Position numbers and translations under genes: made by a program. This document shows positions 50,792 through 62,992 of a DNA stretch of 64,000 nt, one piece after another (within the stretch, counting starts at the first letter, position 1; each line of letters starts with the position of its first letter). The stretch comes from Limosilactobacillus reuteri (lineage in GTDB: Bacteria > Bacillota > Bacilli > Lactobacillales > Lactobacillaceae). The stretch spans positions 1 to 64,000 of the forward strand of contig NZ_JAJGTZ010000028.1 in assembly GCF_020784725.1 (NCBI RefSeq), in the 5' to 3' direction. Under the pieces are notes generated by a model that worked only from the letters and a program-made list of their open reading frames with translations, made no database searches and was not told where the DNA came from.

Positions 50792-50813
50792 GGTAGAAAA
50801 ACGGTAGACAACT
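50792..50813 (+). repeat. Candidate attachment site, integrase end
   Basis: 22-bp direct repeat identical to 59611-59632. It contains two GGTAGA hexamers separated by AAAAC. It overlaps the end of the ancestral integrase frame. Confidence 0.75.
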
Positions 50814-52055
50814 ACACCTTGACGAACTGATTCCCAGTGAAGTTGACCAGTGAATGATCAGGGTGATCAATATGCCCCATGGCACCATTCATTTGGTCGG
50901 CTACCGTCCGATTACGTCCTCGCCATAGTTCAGAATAATACTGCAAGTAGGTGTTGGTTTAGCGTGCCCAAGTCGTTGTGATACCGCCAAGATGTCTACA
51001 TTATATTTATTAATAAGTAAGCAAACATGCGAAGTTCTTAATTCTCGTGCTTGAATATGGTGTACCCCTGCTAGCTTTGCGTATCGGTTAATTGTGTTAT
51101 TAACACTTGAACGGTGTAGAGGACGATCAGTTGCACTTAAAACATAATGATCATTACCATTTTGTGGTAGGTTATCGTATTGTTCCTGCTTCCACCACTT
51201 AAGCAATTTTACCAAATCGTTCGGTATATCGATTGTGCGCATACTACTCATGGTTTTAGTATAATTCTTGCGTTTCTTATCTGGGTCGATACTGTTAGTT
51301 AGCGTGTGATTTACCCTAATATACCCATCATGCAGATTAATATCAGACCACCAGAGCGCTAACCCTTCGGAGACCCGTAAACCAGTAAAATAGTACAGGT
51401 TAAGCATTACATAAGCTAGAGCACCCTCAATATCCCCCAAATAACACTTAGACACTACCTCCTTGAACTCTTCAAGGGTCCAATAATTGATAATATGAGG
51501 TCCCTTTGCAATAGCTCGAGTAGCTTTCTTTACCCGTGAGGGATTTCTTAACAAATAATCTAAATCAACGGCAGTATCTAATACTTGTCGGAATATACCA
51601 TATACAATGGATGCAAAAGATTGAGAGTAACCAGCTTCTGATGAAAGTAACCATGATCTAAAATCAAAGCAATCTTTAGGGGTAATGTCTTTTAAAGATT
51701 TAGCACCTAGTCTTTCTTTAATAAGCTTAAAAATTGACTTACGTGAGCTCCAAGTACTGTTCTCAACTTCACGACGATAATTAGGTATATAGACATTGCT
51801 CATGAAATTTTCCAAACTTATTTGCGATGAATGAACACTAGTCCCATCGCCAATTTCGCCCAGAACTCGTTGAACTTCTAAATGCGCCGCCCTTGCTGTT
51901 TTAAAACGATTACCCAAACGATCACGGCGTGCTTTCTTAATTATCTTTTTCCCAGTTAACGGGTCTTTTCCAAGATAGATAGAATAATAGTAGTAACCTT
52001 TATGGCCGTCTTTTGCTGGTTGATAGTAAACCGATTGATACTTAGTTCTTGCCAT
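50812..52055 (-). pseudogene. Tyrosine recombinase/integrase, frameshifted near the C-terminus
   Basis: The ATG at 52055 (MARTKYQSVYYQPAKDG) opens a phage-type integrase: N-terminal arm-binding domain, SAM-like domain (ISLENFMSNVYIPNYRREVE), and a catalytic domain with YFTGLRVSEGLALWW. The current frame ends at 50901 with an odd tail (PTPTCSIILNYGEDVIGR). Another frame continues smoothly as YLQYYSELWRGRNRTVADQM and ends at 50812. One base appears to be missing near 50950-50962. The shift removes the segment with the catalytic Tyr. In addition, the usual HxLR box reads RELR. The enzyme is probably inactive. Confidence 0.8.
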
Positions 52056-52260
52056 CCTTATCACCCTTATTAAGCGGGACACCCAGAATGACATCCTCAA
52101 TTATAGCACGAGGAGCAACTTCGAGACGAGGATTCGCCCAGAAAGTCTTGCCACGTTTAACCATTATTTGTCTTGCTTCCCGCAGAATCGTCTTGGCCTG
52201 GTTCGTTTTAAAGCCTAGATCCTCAAGTTCTTGCTTAGTCACTGTTGACCTTGTCATCAT
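52042..52260 (-). CDS. DUF3173-family protein of the element
   Basis: The protein is 72 aa from MMTRSTVTKQELEDLGFK, after AAAGGGGGAAACG. The pattern TKQELEDLGFKTNQAKTILR and RGKTFWANPRLEVAPRAIIE matches DUF3173, small proteins usually encoded just before integrases of Gram-positive integrative elements. It could act as an excisionase or directionality factor, which is an inference from position. It overlaps the integrase start by 14 bp and the initiator end by 26 bp. Confidence 0.75.
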   Translation of the reverse strand: MMTRSTVTKQELEDLGFKTNQAKTILREARQIMVKRGKTFWANPRLEVAPRAIIEDVILGVPLNKGDKDGKN

Positions 52261-53104
52261 CGTTTCCCCCTTTCTTGTTATAAAATTCATTTTTGTTAAC
52301 AATTTTCTTCCCATCTTTAGTGCTGAAAGATCGTTCGTAAGTAGCTCGTCTATCTTTATCACTTAAATCATATTGATTTAACAACCGTTGCTTAATGTCT
52401 GTTTTCATTACTGGATCCTTTATCCCCTTGGATCTTCGATAAATTCTAATGCCCTTGGGATACATATATAAGCGGGCACCCTTTGCATTAACCTTTTGAT
52501 TACCACTATTAACTTTCAGATCTGATAGATAAGCCATCACATATGAAGCCACATTGTCTGAATTAAATAAGCGTTTTGTCTTAGTAAATCCTTTGCACCA
52601 CAATTTCTGTACAATATTGTTGGGAATATATAATTCCTCACCATCAAGGGTTTTAAGTAACAAGTGCAAGTGCCAACGTCCGCTCAGTTGAGGCTCAATC
52701 ACAGCAATATATTCTAAACGACCTTTTACCTTACGCAGTTTGCTAATAAAGTTTTTAAAGTCCTGATACACCACTTTTGTGTCGTTCAAATTATGGGCAT
52801 TAATATCTACTCCATAAGTCAAAGTAATCCATAACTGATCGTTTCCGCCATCAAAATTATTAGCTATTAATCTCCTCAAAGAATGCATAGTCCTTTTTAC
52901 TGAAGATAGATTACCGACACGACTATTAGCATTTGTATTCATCTGTTTTATTTCGCCAGTGGTCAAATCTACATATCGATGATCCGAAATCACTAGAATG
53001 GATTGTTGATGATTATTGATATTACTAGTTGAAAGTTCAACAGTGTCACCGTACAAATAAGCTTTAACCACTGCGTTCTTGTCAATCTCACTATCAGCTT
53101 TCAT
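52235..53104 (-). CDS. HUH replication initiator / MobT-like relaxase
   Basis: The protein is 289 aa. The HUH metal motif reads GRWHLHLLLK (about residue 143), and a Tyr-containing helix SYVMAYLSDLK follows at about 187. This is the layout of rolling-circle Rep proteins and of MobT-type initiators in Tn916-like elements. It would nick the element's origin for replication or transfer. The C-terminus is highly charged (KKGGNDDDKVNSD). Confidence 0.8.
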   Translation of the reverse strand: MKADSEIDKNAVVKAYLYGDTVELSTSNINNHQQSILVISDHRYVDLTTGEIKQMNTNANSRVGNLSSVKRTMHSLRRLIANNFDGGNDQLWITLTYGVDINAHNLNDTKVVYQDFKNFISKLRKVKGRLEYIAVIEPQLSGRWHLHLLLKTLDGEELYIPNNIVQKLWCKGFTKTKRLFNSDNVASYVMAYLSDLKVNSGNQKVNAKGARLYMYPKGIRIYRRSKGIKDPVMKTDIKQRLLNQYDLSDKDRRATYERSFSTKDGKKIVNKNEFYNKKGGNDDDKVNSD

Positions 53105-53207
53105 AATTTCACCGCTGTTGTGTCACGATAATCAAGTTAAAGGGCAGTTGCACAAGCAACTACCCTCGCGACGACAGTCTAACGACCTGCTCGTCGCTAA
53201 CCAATAC

Positions 53208-54053
53208 TCATGTATTTGTTCTCGTAAGGTAACGATCAGTATCCTGATTAGTTAGAGATAACTTCAAAATCTGCCATATCTTTTCCGGCTCAATTTTTGG
53301 CGCCCTAAATGGCATTAAAAGCTCATCATTACTACCGTTAATCCATGCTAGCCCCTCACCTTTAGTTAAATGATATTCTGGAATATCAGTATCGTTACCA
53401 AATCCAAGGCGTAATTGAGTTGAGGTCATTGAACCCATCCCTAACTTAACGCTGACCTGTTCAGTAATAATCGTACTAAGACCTGCATTCCCAACTGATG
53501 GTTGCTGAGTAATAATTATGGCGACAAATCCTAATCCAGCACCAGTTAGAAATAGTTCCCTAATTAGTGCATCCCACTTATACCGATCATTCTTATCTTT
53601 TTTAGACAATCCTTCATTAAAAACTGCGTTAGTAGTTGCGTATTCCTCCAGTATTAAACAAAATAAAGGCATATGTAACGTACTTGCCGTTGCTCCGAAG
53701 CTGGTCTTATCAGCAATAAAATTGGCCCTTTTTCTTTTCAGAGCTACAAACTGATTAAGAAGCTTTAAAGCTTCAGTCTTGTTAGTCGCTACCCGATCAG
53801 GTGGTAATAGCCTACCTAACCTGGCCATTTCAGCATTTTTTAAATCGATTATAAACAGCTGAGTTGGACAGCTAGCTAATCCGTGCAATCCATTGATATT
53901 ATCGAGAGGTAAGGACGCTAGCATGTTTATTAAGTGTATGGTTAAGAAACTCTTACCTGATTGAGTAGGCCCGAAGACTAAAGTGAAAGGTTGATCCATC
54001 GCATCATATCCGATAGTTCGAGATATGGGTACGTAATATTGACTCAATTTCAT
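53208..54053 (-). CDS. FtsK/TcpA-like DNA translocase ATPase of the element
   Basis: The protein is 281 aa from MKLSQYYVPISRTIG, with AAGGGG upstream. Walker A is GPTQSGKS (about residue 28) and Walker B is PLFCLILEEY (about 130). A later ITQQPSV segment matches FtsK/SpoIIIE and coupling ATPases such as Tn916 Orf21. It lacks an N-terminal membrane domain; the separate membrane protein upstream may supply the anchor. It would bring the nicked DNA to a transfer channel. Confidence 0.8.
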   Translation of the reverse strand: MKLSQYYVPISRTIGYDAMDQPFTLVFGPTQSGKSFLTIHLINMLASLPLDNINGLHGLASCPTQLFIIDLKNAEMARLGRLLPPDRVATNKTEALKLLNQFVALKRKRANFIADKTSFGATASTLHMPLFCLILEEYATTNAVFNEGLSKKDKNDRYKWDALIRELFLTGAGLGFVAIIITQQPSVGNAGLSTIITEQVSVKLGMGSMTSTQLRLGFGNDTDIPEYHLTKGEGLAWINGSNDELLMPFRAPKIEPEKIWQILKLSLTNQDTDRYLTRTNT

Positions 54054-54070
54054 ACTTAACATCCCCTTAA

Positions 54071-54640
54071 TCAGTAGCGCAATTGATCACGTTTCAAATC
54101 ATCGCCGAGTATGTAAAAAATCCAGCCATCTTTTACGTACTTGTTTTTGATGTAAACTCGAAACCCCTGGTTGTTAAGCCACGCCTGCAAACTTTGAGTA
54201 GTATTATCTGATTTTAATTTATTGACAATACCACCAATAACTTGGATTTTAATTAGGTGATTAGTACCATTAACCATCGGCAAATGATACTTGGTCGAAT
54301 CTGACATATCCAGTGCGAAAATTCCTTCGCCGATAAGCCACTGGTCAAAACTGCTTGAATGTAGCAGTTCTGTCAAACTTGGCTGATTAATTAGCTTATA
54401 CTTGATTACAAAACGAATAACTGGCATGAGTAAGGCTATTGATATTAAGAAAAACAACCAACCGATAATACGTAAAAAGCCACCAAAGATCGGCGTATAA
54501 GCTGTACTAGCGCAAATATATGTGACTAATAAAGATAAGCCACTCAGAATGAGACAAACGTTTTTGGTGTCCCATCGTCCATTTGCTTGCGGTGCATTAA
54601 TGGTTCGACCGTTAACGTTTTTATTTTTTAGCAACATCAT
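54071..54640 (-). CDS. Element-encoded membrane protein, 189 aa
   Basis: Two membrane helices are visible (NVCLILSGLSLLVTYICA and FLRIIGWLFFLISIALLMPV, about residues 27-75). A soluble C-terminal domain follows (IKIQVIGGIVNKLKSDNTTQ, GWIFYILGDD). The start overlaps the upstream stop by 4 bp (TGATG-type), with GGCGGTGA before it. It may anchor the following ATPase at the membrane; this is inferred only from order. I recognise no named family. Confidence 0.7.
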   Translation of the reverse strand: MMLLKNKNVNGRTINAPQANGRWDTKNVCLILSGLSLLVTYICASTAYTPIFGGFLRIIGWLFFLISIALLMPVIRFVIKYKLINQPSLTELLHSSSFDQWLIGEGIFALDMSDSTKYHLPMVNGTNHLIKIQVIGGIVNKLKSDNTTQSLQAWLNNQGFRVYIKNKYVKDGWIFYILGDDLKRDQLRY

Positions 54641-54987
54641 TCACCGCCTTCAATATCCTCGACGTCATCCGCTCGAACTGATAATTGATTTTGATATTCG
54701 CCGTAAATTGTTGCTTCTGGATTAATCAGACGTACTAAGTGTGGTGTAATAATCTGTTGCGGTTCTCGTCCAGCAATTTTGACGGACAAAGTTTGTCCTA
54801 CATTTGTAATAGTAGGATCACCATAATCAGAGTGGTCTTGCCAGACAACGACGTTGAGTTTTGTCCCAAGCTTTTTGCCAGAGTCAAAGTCTAACCATGG
54901 CTCTTCTGACATAGCCATCAAAATCTTGGGTCCAAAAAAACCTTGGTTGTCAAATTGTTTAAATGCAGATAATTTCTTAAACGACAT
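54637..54987 (-). CDS. DUF961-like conjugative element protein
   Basis: The protein is 116 aa, with AAGGAG before the ATG. It contains LGTKLNVVVWQDHSDYG and AGREPQQIITPHLVRLINPE, ending with YGEYQNQLSVRADDVEDIEGG. This resembles Tn916 Orf22/Orf23 (DUF961) in length and pattern. Function unknown. It opens the core operon of the element. Confidence 0.65.
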   Translation of the reverse strand: MSFKKLSAFKQFDNQGFFGPKILMAMSEEPWLDFDSGKKLGTKLNVVVWQDHSDYGDPTITNVGQTLSVKIAGREPQQIITPHLVRLINPEATIYGEYQNQLSVRADDVEDIEGGE

Positions 54988-55081
54988 ACTATTCTCCTTT
55001 TTTGTGCCGAGCTTCGAAATCCCTTCACAAACAGCAAGCGCTCTTCCAACCTGATGTGTGTGATAATTAATATTTTGAAAA

Positions 55082-55124
55082 TAAAAAAAGAGGATTAAAT
55101 TACCATTAAGTAAATTAATCCTCT
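55082..55124 (-). terminator. Terminator between restriction gene and element core
   Basis: GAGGATTAATTT pairs with AATTTAATCCTC on the minus strand and is followed by TTTTTTTATT. Confidence 0.8.
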
Positions 55125-55189
55125 ATATATTTAATTGATCAGGAAAAGTACACACTAATCCCGTTCGTTATTTTTAAACACGAATTAAT

Positions 55190-55290
55190 CAGTTAAGCAT
55201 TCTATACCGCTTAACCTGTCCATTTTTACCAAAATAGCTCCCTAAACCCTTCGCTGAGGCGGAACATTGACCTTAGCATATGAAAAGTCA
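55190..55290. other. Structured non-coding region, candidate oriT or nick origin
   Basis: An inverted repeat GTTAAGC / GCTTAAC (55192-55198 and 55209-55215) with a 10-nt loop is followed by a GC-richer patch near CTTCGCTGAGGCGG. It lies in the only sizeable spacer of the element, upstream of its transfer genes. An origin recognised by the HUH protein is plausible but not shown. Confidence 0.3.
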
Positions 55291-55384
55291 GGTAGAATGC
55301 CTAATTCTATCAAATAAAAACGTAAGCCTATCCGACATTCAGAGATACATCAGCTTATATAATCATTTTACACAACAATCTAAA

Positions 55385-58300
55385 TTAATCAATAGTTAAA
55401 TCAGGTAATTTATTGACTAAATCAACTGTCTGAATTGAAACATTAATTATCCGCAGAAGCAAATTGAAAATATACTTCTGATCATCGCTATAGTCGTTAG
55501 GATCATCTGTAATACCAGATTTCTTATCCGTTTTAACTTGGTACTGATCCATGATCCATTCGATTGCTGATTTATCATCAATAATATAGCTGTAAGCCTT
55601 CAGCGGAATATTACTGATCGTAATCGTATCATTAAAGATGATTGTAGAATAATCTTTTTCACGCTTACCAGTATCAGAATTGAGTTTTTTAGCGAACTTC
55701 ATTTTCTTTACTCGATAATTGGGTTCACCTTTGACAGTGATATTTACATCATCATAAGGTTCTACCTTTTCGTAATTTAAATGAAGATCAATTAATTTCT
55801 TACCGATTTCAACATATTTATCTTTATCTTTTACAACAGGTATTCTTGCCAGGTCTTTTTTCAGATCATTGGCATATTTATCTCGATATTCTTTTGAATT
55901 GAGCAAACCGTAAATATATGCAAACGTATCATCTTTAGTTAAACCTATTTTTTTAGAAAAGTAAGTGGTGATGTTGTCTTTATTTTGTTTGATAAGTTCA
56001 TTCGAACTTTCAGTATTGTTGTACATCATGAATCCTTGAGTTGCAGTTAAACAGTTAAGGTTAGGTATTAATCCAGAAACAAGAGAAGAGAACCTACTAG
56101 ATCCTCTACCGGAAGTAAGAATGACTATATTGTGATTACCCCATTGCTTAATATATTTTCCGGGACGTTCTGTTAATTTTCGATCAAAATATAGCCATTT
56201 TTTTGCGAACGGTCTATATAAGCTTAGAACAATATGATTAGGATTAAAAGTTATTTTCTCACCCTTACGATATGTTCTTCGTAATCCGGCAGACCATTTA
56301 ACATTGTCCACATTTTTATCATCCTTTTTTTCATCTAAGGACTGATTATAATTGGCAATCATCCTTTCCATATTAGTATATAAGTTATGTTTAGAAAATG
56401 AAACTGCCCAACCATCACGATTGGTGTTAATGCCTGGAGCATTTTCATAAAAGGGAGACTTGGCTTCTCCAGAAATACTTGGGAATTTTTGATAATTTGG
56501 GTCTCTTGGGTTTATCCAGTCACTATTAATATCTGGCAATAGTTTTTTCCAAGGAATGTTGGTGATGCTGCCAAACGATTGAATAAGCTCTAATTTCTCT
56601 TTTCTAGAAAGATAGTTACCTATGTCATGATAGAACAACTCATGGTTATCGGAATTATCTTTAGCATGTAGCTCATGCATGTATTTGCGTAAAATGTCTT
56701 GATAAGTGATTTTTCCAGCATCCATCTCTTGCTTGAAATACTGAAGAGTTCGGGTGATGAACGTACCTGTACCGGTAAACGGATCTAAAACATGGACATT
56801 TTGGTCTGAAAGACGTTTACCAAAGTATTTCTGCAAAGCGTCATCCACCGAATGAATAATAAAGTCCACAACCTCAACAGGGGTAAAGACGATACCCATG
56901 GCATCAGTAGTCTTTTCAAACCCCTTTCTAAAGAAGTTTTCATACAGAGTCTTAATTATGCGTTGCTTAGCAGCTGCATTATCAATTCCTTGTGCACGTG
57001 CCTTTACGGAATCATAAAACGGCTTTAATGATTGCTGACCATTATCAAAACCATACTTCTCAAATACCGCAACCACGCTATTAATTGCTTGAGAAACAGG
57101 ATTATCCTTTACAAAACTGTAACCGGCAAATAGGGCTTCAAATACTGGCTGAGTAATCAAATGCTGTGCTAACATCTGCACGGCCTGGTCTCGGTCGATA
57201 CCGTCATTAATGTTATAGTGCAGGCTCTTTAGAAAGCTATCAAAGGCCTGCTTAGCTTCCACATTTGAATCGATCAAGTCATTAATTCGTTGAATGTGCT
57301 TATGGGCAATATTGGCAACATCTGATGACCAATCTTCAAGATAACGACGATCACCAACCTTTTGAACTACACGTCCGTAAAAGGCTTGTTCAATTTCACC
57401 CCATTTCAGAGCTAAGCTAGTTTGGTATGTAGCAGGTTCTTCTTGAACCGACTCGGCTTCTTTTCCTCGCTCTTCAGTAACCGGCTTGCTTGGACTAGTA
57501 TCCGTACCGATAAAGTTAATCTTCCCAGATTTTTTCTTATTTAATTGCAGCTTATTAATCTCAGCTTCAAAGCGCTCATCTGTAGAACGTAAAGCGTTCA
57601 AAACCTGCCAAACTTCACGATAACGCTTGTTGTTATCTAACACATCTTCAGGTTTAGCTCCTGCGTCAATTACCACTGGCAGAATAATATATCCATAATC
57701 TTTACCTTCATAACGACGCATAATCCGCCCAACAGCCTGCACAATGTCAACTTGGGACTTTTTTGGGCTAAAGAATATTACTGCATCCAGGCTTGGTACA
57801 TCAATACCTTCGGTTAAGAAGCGAACATTGGACAAAACACGTGCGTGATTATCCTCCATGTCGTTAGCCAGCCAGTCCAACGCATTCTTCTTCTGAAGTG
57901 CGTTCAATGATCCGTCAACATGTTTGACATCAACGGTAAAGCTGTCATCCGCTTCTTTGCCTAAATAGTCATTAACTACATTATTAAATTCCTTGGCAAT
58001 CTCTTTAGAGTGGGCAATAGTGTCTGTAAAGGCAATGGCTCGTTTCATAGGAGCACCCTTAATCTCGCCGTTTAAGCCGTTTCGCTTAACCATTGCATTC
58101 CAAACACCAATGATCTTACCAGGGTCATCCGTCTTTAACTCATTGTCTGAAGCCAAGGTTTCCTGCATAGCTTTATTAACGTACTGCTCACTGACCGCCA
58201 AAACTGAGACTTTGTAATCCGTTAAGTAGCCACGATTAACGGCATCGCCAAAGCCCAGATGGAAGATCACATCACCATACGTTTTTTCGTCATCCATAGA

Positions 58301-59458
58301 GGATATAACAACACTCTGTTCCTTAGCCTTCTTCTTTGCATCAACCCCATAAACCTTAGGAGTAGCTGTTTGATACAATCGCAGTTTACTACTTACATTC
58401 TTGTTTGAATGAACCTTAGTAAAAACGCTAGGGTCGCCCATTTCATTAGCACCAGTTGTTCGATGAGCTTCATCCGCAACAATCAAGTCAAATTCAGGGA
58501 GTCCAATTTCCTGTGCTTTATGAATGACATCAATAGATTGGTAGGTACTAAAGATAACATTCATTTGTTTCCCAGTATTTGATTTTATTTTTTGATAGTT
58601 ATCCATCAATTGATTGACATTAGTAGTGGCTGGAAAACCAATATCCTTAGCACTTAAATCATCATCCCCATGTTTCTTCTTGGTAGCTTTAGCATCCGAG
58701 ACCACCGAAAATGAGTTCATGTAAATCTGTTCATCATGGTCATCATTCCAGTTAAACAGTGTTTGAGACAAAAGCTGAATACTTGGTACCAGGTACAAAA
58801 CGTTGAAATTACTTTTATCCTGGTCTTTCATCAAAGCTTCAGCAATTTTAAGACTAGTAAAGGTTTTACCCGTTCCTGGCGCCATAATTAGTTTGCCACG
58901 ATCGTGTTGTTTAAAGTAGCTCAGCGATTTATCAATAGCTTCTTGTTGATAATCACGTAACTCCTTAGGCTTCTGTCGTAAGTGATCGTTAGGTTGATCA
59001 AAGTCAAAAAGCTGCCAATTGATACTAGCATGCTCTAACTGTGATAAACCTATCCTCGTCATAGGTTTAGATAATTTCTCTAAAGCCTGTTCCGCATTCC
59101 TATTCCACTGGTCAGTTGTGCTAACTAAAATACCAGCTTCATAGTAATTCTTACTAAATTCAGCAATGAATGAATTAATGGTATCTTTGCCAACTTTGCC
59201 GGTATAAAACTTAGCCTGGACTGCGGTAAGCCCACCCGTAATTCGATCCTGAGCAACAATATCAACACCAGTATCCTTCTTGGGAATACCTAGTTCATCC
59301 GGTACTTCATTTAACATCCAAACATGACTGAATTTATTGTGATAAGTCGGCTCGTTCTTCAAATAAGCCACTACAATTTCTTCAAATGCAGTTCCCCGAT
59401 CACGAGTTCCTTTGATATGATCGTTTACCTGTTTTATTAGTTCATTAAATGTCGCCAT
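55385..59458 (-). CDS. Type ISP restriction enzyme with methyltransferase core deleted, 1357 aa
   Basis: The N-terminus is an Mrr-like nuclease (GTAFEEIV, DTGVDIVAQDR, TAVQAKF with the D-QxK pattern, about residues 22-85). A superfamily 2 translocase follows: LRDYQQEAI, Walker A MAPGTGKTF (about 192), VADEAHR (about 330), YQTATP, and VGRIMRRYEG. Then come a coupler and SAM motif I DPFTGTGTF (about 893). The C-terminus is a TRD-like domain (LSLYRPFAKKWLYFD, YIYGLLNSKEYRDKYANDL). LlaGI-type relatives are about 1570 aa. Here HELHAK (about 933) jumps to FYHDIGNYLSRKEKL. About 210 residues are missing, with the NPPY methylation motif. No second methyltransferase gene is nearby. The start follows TAGGAG. 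Confidence 0.88.
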   Translation of the reverse strand: MATFNELIKQVNDHIKGTRDRGTAFEEIVVAYLKNEPTYHNKFSHVWMLNEVPDELGIPKKDTGVDIVAQDRITGGLTAVQAKFYTGKVGKDTINSFIAEFSKNYYEAGILVSTTDQWNRNAEQALEKLSKPMTRIGLSQLEHASINWQLFDFDQPNDHLRQKPKELRDYQQEAIDKSLSYFKQHDRGKLIMAPGTGKTFTSLKIAEALMKDQDKSNFNVLYLVPSIQLLSQTLFNWNDDHDEQIYMNSFSVVSDAKATKKKHGDDDLSAKDIGFPATTNVNQLMDNYQKIKSNTGKQMNVIFSTYQSIDVIHKAQEIGLPEFDLIVADEAHRTTGANEMGDPSVFTKVHSNKNVSSKLRLYQTATPKVYGVDAKKKAKEQSVVISSMDDEKTYGDVIFHLGFGDAVNRGYLTDYKVSVLAVSEQYVNKAMQETLASDNELKTDDPGKIIGVWNAMVKRNGLNGEIKGAPMKRAIAFTDTIAHSKEIAKEFNNVVNDYLGKEADDSFTVDVKHVDGSLNALQKKNALDWLANDMEDNHARVLSNVRFLTEGIDVPSLDAVIFFSPKKSQVDIVQAVGRIMRRYEGKDYGYIILPVVIDAGAKPEDVLDNNKRYREVWQVLNALRSTDERFEAEINKLQLNKKKSGKINFIGTDTSPSKPVTEERGKEAESVQEEPATYQTSLALKWGEIEQAFYGRVVQKVGDRRYLEDWSSDVANIAHKHIQRINDLIDSNVEAKQAFDSFLKSLHYNINDGIDRDQAVQMLAQHLITQPVFEALFAGYSFVKDNPVSQAINSVVAVFEKYGFDNGQQSLKPFYDSVKARAQGIDNAAAKQRIIKTLYENFFRKGFEKTTDAMGIVFTPVEVVDFIIHSVDDALQKYFGKRLSDQNVHVLDPFTGTGTFITRTLQYFKQEMDAGKITYQDILRKYMHELHAKDNSDNHELFYHDIGNYLSRKEKLELIQSFGSITNIPWKKLLPDINSDWINPRDPNYQKFPSISGEAKSPFYENAPGINTNRDGWAVSFSKHNLYTNMERMIANYNQSLDEKKDDKNVDNVKWSAGLRRTYRKGEKITFNPNHIVLSLYRPFAKKWLYFDRKLTERPGKYIKQWGNHNIVILTSGRGSSRFSSLVSGLIPNLNCLTATQGFMMYNNTESSNELIKQNKDNITTYFSKKIGLTKDDTFAYIYGLLNSKEYRDKYANDLKKDLARIPVVKDKDKYVEIGKKLIDLHLNYEKVEPYDDVNITVKGEPNYRVKKMKFAKKLNSDTGKREKDYSTIIFNDTITISNIPLKAYSYIIDDKSAIEWIMDQYQVKTDKKSGITDDPNDYSDDQKYIFNLLLRIINVSIQTVDLVNKLPDLTID

Positions 59459-59610
59459 TATATACTCCTAACCTACTCAACAACTTTAATAATAATTATC
59501 TTACATTAGCGCAGTTCAATTCAATAATCTTGGTAGAAAATAAATAGGGACTAAAAGTATATAAATACCTCTAATCCCTTATATATTACCCAATTCCTAC
59601 TACACAAAAC

Positions 59611-59632
59611 GGTAGAAAAACGGTAGACAACT
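59611..59632 (+). repeat. Candidate attachment site, guaA end
   Basis: Second copy of the 22-bp direct repeat. It lies between the restriction gene start and guaA. The spacer 59459-59717 holds no other feature. Confidence 0.75.
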
Positions 59633-59717: not shown

Positions 59718-61271
59718 TTATTCGTATTCAATCGTCGAAGGTGGCTTACTCGTGACATCATAAAGAATGCGGTTAACGTGGTCAACTTCATTTACGATCC
59801 GGACTGAGATCTTTTGAAGGACATCCCATGGAATCTTAGCGAAATCGGCTGTCATTCCATCAATTGAAGTAACGGCCCGAATAGCAACTGCATAGTCATA
59901 TGTCCGGCCATCACCCATAACACCAACTGAACGAATACCTGGTAAAACAGTAAAGTATTGCCAGATTTCTTCATCAAGACCTGCTTTCTTGATTTCTTCA
60001 CGAAGGATTGCATCACTTTCACGAACAATCTCAAGCTTTTCAGGAGTAATTTCGCCAATAACCCGAATTCCAAGACCTGGGCCTGGGAATGGTTGACGCC
60101 ATACCAATTCATGTGGGATCCCGAGTTTTTCACCCAATTCACGAGTTTCATCTTTAAAGAGCTTGCGTAATGGTTCAATTAACTTGAAACCAAGCTTCTT
60201 TGGCAAACCACCAACATTATGGTGAGACTTAATTGTCTGTGCAGTGTCGGTTCCAGATTCAATTACGTCAGTATAAAGCGTACCTTGAGCTAAGAAATCA
60301 GCGTCTTTAATCTTCTTGGCCTCTTCGTTAAAGACTTCGATAAATTCCTTACCGATAATCTTCCGCTTTTGTTCTGGATCGGTAACCCCTTCAAGCTTGC
60401 CTAAGAAGCGATCTGCAGCGTCAACTTTAATGATGTTAACACCAAGGTCGCGACTCAACGCATCCATTACTTGGTCAGCTTCGTTTTTCCGTAACAATCC
60501 GTGGTCAACAAAGATACAAGTAAGTTGGTCACCAATTGCCTTATGAATCAAAACGGCGGTAACACTAGAGTCAACACCACCAGAAAGACCCAAGATAACC
60601 TTCTTGTCACCGACTTCTTTGCGGATTTCATCAATCTGCATATCGATAAAGTCATCCATCGTCCAGTTTGCTTTAGCGCCACAAACATCAAAAGCGAAGC
60701 GACGTAAAATATCTAACCCATATTCGGAATTACGAACTTCTGGGTGGAATTGAACGCCATAGAATTTACGGTCATTATCAGCAATTGATGCGATCGGACA
60801 GTTCTTACTAGTAGCAGTAACTTCAAAGCCAGCTGGGGCTTGAGTTACTAAGTCACCATGACTCATCCATACATATTGCTTCTTTGGCAAACCTTTGAAT
60901 AATACAGCCTCGTCATCAAGTACTTCAATATCTGCTCGTCCATATTCGGAGTTGTCAGCTTTTTCAACTTTTCCGCCAAGGTCGTATGACATTAATTGCA
61001 TTCCATAACAAATACCTAAGATCGGGATACCAAGCTTAAAGATTTCTGGATCGACCTTGAATGCATTTGGATCATAAACACTGTTAGGGCCACCAGAGAA
61101 AATGATCCCCTTAGGATTAATCTCTTTGATCTCGTCCGCAGTTAACTTGTGAGAAAGCAATTCGGAATAAATACCGAAATCACGAAGCCGACGAGTAATC
61201 AATTGATTGTATTGACTACCAAAATCCAAGACAATGATCTTATCAAACGCATCTAAATTGATGTTTGCCAC
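59718..61271 (-). CDS. guaA: GMP synthase (glutamine-hydrolysing)
   Basis: The protein is 517 aa from a GTG at 61271 ([18 protein letters not shown]), after AAAGGAAG; this matches the usual length. It converts XMP, ATP and glutamine to GMP. The class I glutaminase domain has Cys88 in ILGICYGMQ and the HPE pair in YGVQFHPEV. The ATP pyrophosphatase P-loop is LSGGVDSSV (about 230). The C-terminal dimerisation part ends PPSTIEYE. A good promoter lies just upstream. The neighbouring element inserted in the spacer beyond its 3' end without altering the coding sequence. Confidence 0.97.
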
Positions 61272-61311
61272 AATGACACTTCCTTTGTTCAAATTTTTAT
61301 TCTTAAAGGCT

Positions 61312-61340
61312 AGTTTACAGGCTGAACATGGCATGGTCAA
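61312..61340 (-). promoter_or_regulatory. Promoter of guaA
   Basis: TTGACC (61335-61340) and TAAACT (61312-61317) are 17 bp apart, 41 bp before the GTG start. Confidence 0.6.
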
Positions 61341-61583: not shown

Positions 61584-61786
61584 TAAAAATGAGGCATAAA
61601 TATCATGCGCAACCGTTTCGAACATTGATACATTAGGATTAAAAAGATTTATTTTTTTACTTTTACTAAGGAATTTAACTAGATTTTCTAATGCAGGATT
61701 TGTAATCTATTCCAAATTCAGTTAGTTTGAATGCGCTTTCTGCATTTGATAAAATTTAGTTAGTTATTTTTTACTTGAGGTGCAAT

Positions 61787-62992
61787 ATGTTTATTCGGAC
61801 AAAATATCTTAACCAACTAATAAACAACATGGACCAGCCAATAATTAAGATTCTTGTAGGAGTTCGGCGGTGTGGTAAAACAACTATCCTTGACCAGTTC
61901 CGGGCAACTCTCCGGCGCCAAGAAATTTCCTCAAGTCAAATCCAAGTGATTAACTTTGAATATCTCCTAGAAAATGAATTATGCAATCCAGAATATCTCC
62001 TACAATTTATCCTTGATCGGCTTAGTAAACATCAGATGAATTATATCTTCCTCGATGAGGTCGAAGTGGTTCCCCAGTTTGCCCGCGTTGTAAATGCCCT
62101 AAATTCACTCTCCAATACTGATATCTATATTACAAGTTCCAACAAAACTATTCTGGAGAAAGAAAATCTTCAGCAAATGGTCCCTCATACTATCATCCCC
62201 GTTTTTCCTTGCAGCTTCCGTGAATACATAAAAAGGAACCAACAAGAAGCTGATTCCCAAACGTTATATCAATATTTAAATGAGGGCGGTTTCCCCTATA
62301 CTCACGAAATCCACGGTCCGATCAACCTCCGCAATTATGTGAATGGGATCATTAATACGATTATCATTACCGATTTCACCCAACAAGCGACCCTTTGTAA
62401 TCCAGGCCTAACTAAGCAACTTGCTCATCACTTAGCTCATCATGCTGGGACCACGCAAAATATCTCCCAGATTGTTGACAGTCTTAAACGTCACCACATC
62501 ACTACTTCCAATAAGACAGTTGATTTCTATTTACAGTTCTTACAAACGTCCTTTATCTTTTACCCATGCAAAGAATATGATCTTTCTCGTCACCACGTTA
62601 AAAGTACCAACATTCGTTATTATCCGGTAGATCCTAGTATTCGGCAAGCTCTCACACTGAAAAAGAATGTCCTTTCGCAACGAATCCTTGAAAATATTGT
62701 CTTTATTGATCTATTAAGTCAAGGATACCAGGTATATAGTGGACGAATTAAAGATAATGAGATTACTTTTGTAGCGGTAAAAAACGATATCTTTACCTGT
62801 ATTCAAATTGCCTATTCTCTTGCCGATGATGGCGCTTATCGTCGGGCAACCAGTGGCTTACGGCAACTTTCCTCAAAATATAAAAAGTTTCTGATTACAG
62901 TAAAGCCAGCGCTCAATTACGCTGGCTTAGATCCTGATATTGAAATTATTGACTTATATAGCTGGCTAACCAATTACCCCCGTCGCAAGTAA
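61787..62992 (+). CDS. AAA_14/DUF4143-type ATPase
   Basis: The protein is 401 aa from the ATG at 61787, six bases after GAGG. A TTG four codons upstream overlaps that site. Walker A is GVRRCGKTT (residues 25-33) and Walker B is [10 protein letters not shown] (86-95). A FREYIKR segment and a C-terminal nuclease-like DUF4143 region ([28 protein letters not shown]) follow. These ATPases are common in bacteria and archaea with unclear roles. The gene is convergent with coaA and overlaps it by 19 bp. Confidence 0.85.

Follow-up and report, generated by a model that had tools for sequence, protein, structure and literature searches.

A Type ISP restriction-modification gene of Limosilactobacillus reuteri that has probably lost its methyltransferase core in a recent in-frame deletion

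Introduction

Type ISP restriction-modification enzymes combine an Mrr nuclease, an SF2 motor, a coupler, an N6-adenine methyltransferase and a C-terminal specificity domain (TRD), in this order, on a single chain. In a 64,000-nucleotide stretch of Limosilactobacillus reuteri DNA (assembly GCF_020784725.1, contig NZ_JAJGTZ010000028.1, positions 1 to 64,000; hereafter the window), one gene follows this order with only part of the methyltransferase. A first-pass annotation, made from the sequence alone, reasoned that a working nuclease without methylation should attack its host and offered three ways out of this paradox: the protein is inactive, it is protected by another methylase, or it has been reshaped into a sensor. 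The locus thus raises the question of what exactly has been lost and how a cell can carry such a gene. As detailed below, we regard it as quite probable that a mobile Type ISP gene has recently lost its function through an in-frame deletion of about 615 bp.

Results and discussion

The window gene is a stop-free frame of 1357 amino acids (aa) throughout, and its intact start ATG is preceded by AGGAG (Table 1). Pfam cut-offs are exceeded by Mrr_cat_2, ResIII, Helicase_C, ISP_coupler, a partial N6_Mtase and Type_ISP_C, and the top PADLOC models are those of single-chain restriction-methyltransferases. The N6_Mtase match is confined to aa 834-913 and covers only profile positions 5-74 of 311; SAM motif I (DPFTGTGTF, 56759-56785) lies within this methyltransferase remnant. 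Pfam matches and motifs are in agreement with the first-pass annotation, which had listed nuclease, translocase, SAM motif I and TRD as remaining.

Table 1. Positions in the window of the Type ISP gene, its parts, the element that carries it and the neighbouring chromosomal gene.
Feature	Position	Strand	Basis
22-bp repeat, second copy, att-like end beside integrase	50792..50813	.	repeat comparison
Tyrosine integrase of element	50901..52100	-	family match
Rolling-circle replication initiator-like protein (REP_ORF2-G2P)	52235..53104	-	family match
FtsK/SpoIIIE-like protein	53208..54062	-	PHROGs match only; no Pfam match
Type ISP restriction-modification gene, internal in-frame deletion, 1357 aa	55385..59458	-	ORF; LlaBIII/LlaGI, Pfam, PADLOC matches
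C-terminal specificity domain, Type_ISP_C (TRD), aa 1003-1333	55460..56452	-	Pfam
Deletion junction A932|K933, direct join	56660..56663	-	alignment to L. timonensis homologue; putative TAA microhomology
N6-adenine methyltransferase remnant, aa 831-932	56663..56968	-	Pfam, alignment
Coupler, ISP_coupler, aa 706-829	56972..57343	-	Pfam
SF2 motor C-terminal half, Helicase_C, aa 467-581	57716..58060	-	Pfam; QAVGRIMR present
SF2 motor N-terminal half, ResIII, aa 165-368	58355..58966	-	Pfam; GTGKT, DEAH, TATP present
Mrr-type nuclease, Mrr_cat_2, aa 34-156	58991..59359	-	Pfam; TGVD...QAK residues retained as in LlaBIII
22-bp direct repeat, att-like end, ~85 bp beyond guaA stop	59611..59632	.	repeat comparison
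guaA (GMP synthase), chromosomal neighbour of element	59718..61340	-	

The extent of the loss was defined by alignment to LlaBIII (4XQK) and LlaGI (5FFJ), as the first-pass annotation had proposed. Both enzymes share the domain order of the window protein and are strongly similar to it over residues 3-934 and 938-1356; in contrast to them, the window protein is without about 205 residues of the methyltransferase core, including NPPY and the loops that read the target. LlaBIII residues 14-944 pair with residues 3-934 (phmmer), and a second segment resumes at residue 938, opposite LlaBIII 1154, and continues up to residue 1356. The LlaGI alignment breaks at the same place, and the gap relative to the two enzymes amounts to about 205-209 residues. 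The nearest intact relative, from L. timonensis (L034), is a full-length frame with 90% identity over aa 1-934 which, unlike the window gene, keeps the whole methyltransferase. Measured on this gene, a single internal block of 205 residues (615 bp) is absent; it begins with the N of LHANE and ends with the V of ILVKDG. Where L034 has LHANEIVLL...NPPY...AISILVKDG, the window gene has LHAKDN. The C-terminal parts of the two proteins are only 57% identical, so the specificity of L034 is probably different. The earlier estimate of about 210 residues with NPPY, missing in frame at about 56.65 kb, thus comes very close to the 205 residues and the junction given in Table 1. At the DNA level, the edges of the block in L034 read GCTAATGAA (left) and GTTAAAGAC (right), and the window junction reads GCTAAAGAT. 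The shared 3-bp TAA is the likely breakpoint, with L034 standing in for the ancestor of the window gene.

In L034, catalytic motif IV, NPPY, is found 75 residues from the start of the block; it is absent from the window protein, which is for this reason a descendant and incomplete member of the Type ISP family. To speak of a missing methylation motif, as the first-pass annotation had done in its title, is correct as far as it goes and too narrow, since the alignments indicate that most of the methyltransferase catalytic domain, and more than a single motif, is gone.

We also modelled the C-terminal part of the window protein with AlphaFold, with L034 as control. The alignments were shallow (15 and 14 rows, respectively), and mean pLDDT was 64.5 and 66.8. 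Over residues 171-200 of the models, before and at motif I, block means were 36, 43 and 41 for the window protein vs 82, 90 and 71 for L034, which may hint that the methyltransferase remnant does not fold as a methyltransferase. This argument is weak because part of the methyltransferase is poorly predicted in the intact control too, with block means of 27-58 over residues 231-330. The TRD was mostly better predicted in both models, with some weak blocks. In a Foldseek search with the window model, the top-ranking structures were LlaGI and LlaBIII, although their TM-scores, normalised to the query, reached only 0.41-0.44.

By residue counting from the alignments, the deletion corresponds approximately to LlaGI 943-1147. 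According to the structural account of LlaGI in PMC4872093, the target is gripped by a clamp of methyltransferase and TRD and is read by methyltransferase loops I (1017-1027), II (1053-1062) and III (1115-1138), all of which fall within the missing span. The same account places in this block the catalytic Asn and Tyr of NPPY, the pocket for the flipped adenine and two DNA-plugging residues; the functional methyltransferase residues N1018, Y1021, R1119, F1133 and R1138 are among those lost. For LlaBIII, the ATPase is described in PMC7049714 as being first stimulated once methyltransferase and TRD recognise the target. Because ATPase activation needs this recognition and the loops are lost, the window protein could presumably not be switched on and would be silent, neither destructive to its own cell nor in need of a protector. 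Loss of the target-reading loops would in this way remove the paradox of a nuclease without methylation: the expected attack on the host probably does not take place here. Among the three options offered earlier, the loss of these loops together with NPPY favours an inactive protein.

If the enzyme nevertheless still cut its target, the host would have to be shielded by another methylase of the same specificity. The genome does hold a further HsdM-like gene beside HsdS-like genes (named from sequence), and the only other kind of N6_Mtase match is a 314-aa methyltransferase-like gene (counted from its start codon) adjoining an acetate-kinase-like gene, likewise named from sequence. A Type ISP site would not be expected to fall within the bipartite specificity of a Type I system. 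Our search, which was made with the N6_Mtase family, yielded no candidate for a protecting methylase in the genome, nor was a second Type ISP gene present. As target reading by the methyltransferase loops is itself lost, we rate such shielding as exceedingly improbable, and the protection suggested by the first-pass annotation is not needed to account for the gene. We also searched the genome for the missing block as a split methyltransferase and did not find it, while the same query finds the block in two other genomes (G047, G036).

This search bears on the integrity of the assembly as well. If the deletion were an assembly error, the chromosome would carry an intact Type ISP gene, which we judge improbable: the junction is internal to its contig, none of the other contigs carries the missing block, and the putative 3-bp breakpoint repeat is too short on its own to mislead an assembler. 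The draft state of the genome (43 contigs) and the fact that the deletion is in no other gene examined nevertheless speak for such an error.

An 8.8-kb integrative element (50792-59632) bounded by two identical 22-bp repeats carries the Type ISP gene as cargo; besides the genes in Table 1, the element holds at least two small genes without family match. In two further genomes of the genus (L109, L110), the repeat, in one of them with a mismatch, recurs beyond guaA together with some 80 bp of element-end sequence, and other genes lie beside it. Type ISP genes directly adjoin guaA in five named genomes (L035, L037, L046, L049, L054), making this a recurring place for them and suggesting that guaA is a common home for elements that carry Type ISP genes. 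For L034, unlike the window gene, no guaA match lay in the stretch compared. On the other side of guaA in the window, there is an AAA_14/DUF4143 ATPase gene (61775-62992, plus strand).

We then asked how widespread the deletion is, using overlapping sets of 50 genus, 397 Lactobacillaceae, 395 order and 398 phylum genomes; the block was counted by searching for its sequence directly. In the genus set, the block was present in two other genomes and one more has a 50-residue fragment. At E <= 1e-60, 32 of the 397 Lactobacillaceae genomes match, the window's own included. Twenty-six other genes match from residues 1-4 through 934, and every one of them holds the block with NPPY (26/26); one has a stop inside the block (G142, L079) and another a TGA in its C-terminal match (G075). 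The other five family matches are partial, frameshifted or divergent (G068, G294, G121, G310, G211), and the block is present in G294 and G310. The order set added eight further genomes with nine genes, eight of which hold the block; the ninth (L089, from G488, a genome with two Type ISP genes) is unreadable there, with N over most of the block. Three more order genomes are partial or divergent (G740, G633, G659). The phylum set contributed three others: G954 with the block, G797 (L102) with the block split by a frame change, and a divergent homologue without the block in G806. A scan of named genomes gave 23 loci, four of which match only C-terminally, and the block was found in all 19 that have the N-terminal part.

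Mobile elements gave a similar picture. Among the best 40 of 821 plasmid records, all 40 span 564-807 bp beyond the same residues in the window gene, whereas the best 60 of 161 records at a strict limit are mostly N-terminal matches alone and carry no weight here. One Macrococcoides plasmid record (among the best 30 of 148) aligned without a break over 68 residues that include the junction; it was rejected as a carrier of the deletion, since its gene extends over 4,677 bp when aligned to the query and is full-length. Two of the best 20 of 62 phage matches cover most of the query; both are Listeria phage records that span 4,632 bp and are therefore full-length. A Type ISP search of viral contigs found nothing. 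The same deletion was found in no gene examined in the genus, family, order and phylum sets, the named genomes and the listed plasmids and phages, and by these comparisons has been seen once, in the window gene. The search for homologues that share it, which the first-pass annotation had called for, thus returned none among these genes.

Damage of other kinds was encountered. Three of the 19 named-genome copies are frameshifted in their assemblies (L041, L043, L044), in the motor part with the rest intact, and these frameshifts may be sequencing errors. A Type ISP-like frame of 883 aa (L082, in G068) stops short of the methyltransferase core and retains nuclease, motor and coupler; it is probably a truncated gene. 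None of these, nor L079 and L102, is a case of the same deletion. Judging from the three frameshifted copies and the stop in G142, Type ISP genes decay elsewhere too.

The window protein might alternatively be a modification-independent nuclease-translocase that shed its core in one step and is triggered by the TRD alone or by DNA ends. Nuclease, motor, coupler and TRD are all intact, and the retained parts show no excess change. However, a nuclease-motor-recognition form without methyltransferase that is kept across genomes, as would be expected of a Type IV-like enzyme, was not found among the genes examined, and in the accounts of PMC4872093 and PMC7049714 both the clamp and ATPase activation require the methyltransferase half. 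We therefore consider this highly improbable, and with the deletion in no other gene examined, the earlier idea of a protein reshaped into a sensor finds no support.

The age of the deletion was approached through the retained N-terminal part (aa 1-934). Compared with L034, dN is 0.057, while synonymous change has reached saturation. With five outgroups, window-only and sister-only changes numbered 23/25, 23/24, 18/25, 17/25 and 27/23. The 278 sites that are invariant in 34 outgroups carry no window-only and no sister-only change, while sites conserved to at least 90% carry one and three, respectively. Because the changes are balanced and none is window-only at invariant sites, a long neutral, unconstrained period after the deletion appears unlikely. 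The lack of excess change in the retained parts fits recent loss and continued selection equally well in relative-rate and dN/dS terms, and the intact frame, start, AGGAG and nuclease and motor motifs are also what selection would be expected to leave. A random deletion preserves the frame one time in three. The undamaged long frame had previously been read as a hint of selection; on its own it shows none, and the data fit a recent event. Given that no other gene examined has the deletion, the simplest interpretation is a recent loss.

Taken as a recent loss, the history of the gene could have run as follows. The TAA microhomology would have mediated a single deletion of about 615 bp, leaving a protein that would neither methylate nor recognise its target. 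Without target recognition, the motor would not be switched on and no cutting would follow. The cell would tolerate the deletion because both activities were lost in one event, and the frame would be intact because the event is young and the frame was preserved by chance.

Conclusion

Damaged restriction-modification (R-M) systems are not without precedent. A survey of solitary restriction genes (PMC3488263) counts 74 R-M systems in which the restriction gene is full-length but the methyltransferase may be inactive, all with intact orthologues elsewhere. Loss of activity and sequencing errors are among the reasons it considers, and some of the 74 may, it notes, be such errors. In the cases of that survey, the damaged methyltransferase is a separate gene near the restriction gene, whereas in the window one polypeptide has lost its own core. 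The window gene belongs with such solitary restriction genes with a damaged methyltransferase, as their single-chain counterpart, and among the papers listed by our literature searches none dealt with a natural Type ISP gene that lacks the methyltransferase core. We see in it one more decayed R-M gene, a product of ordinary breakage and unlikely to be a new kind of defence. Should the protein be active after all, it would mean that a Type ISP motor can be triggered without the methyltransferase half. As a decayed gene, it would illustrate how both activities of a single-chain enzyme can disappear at once without harm to the host.
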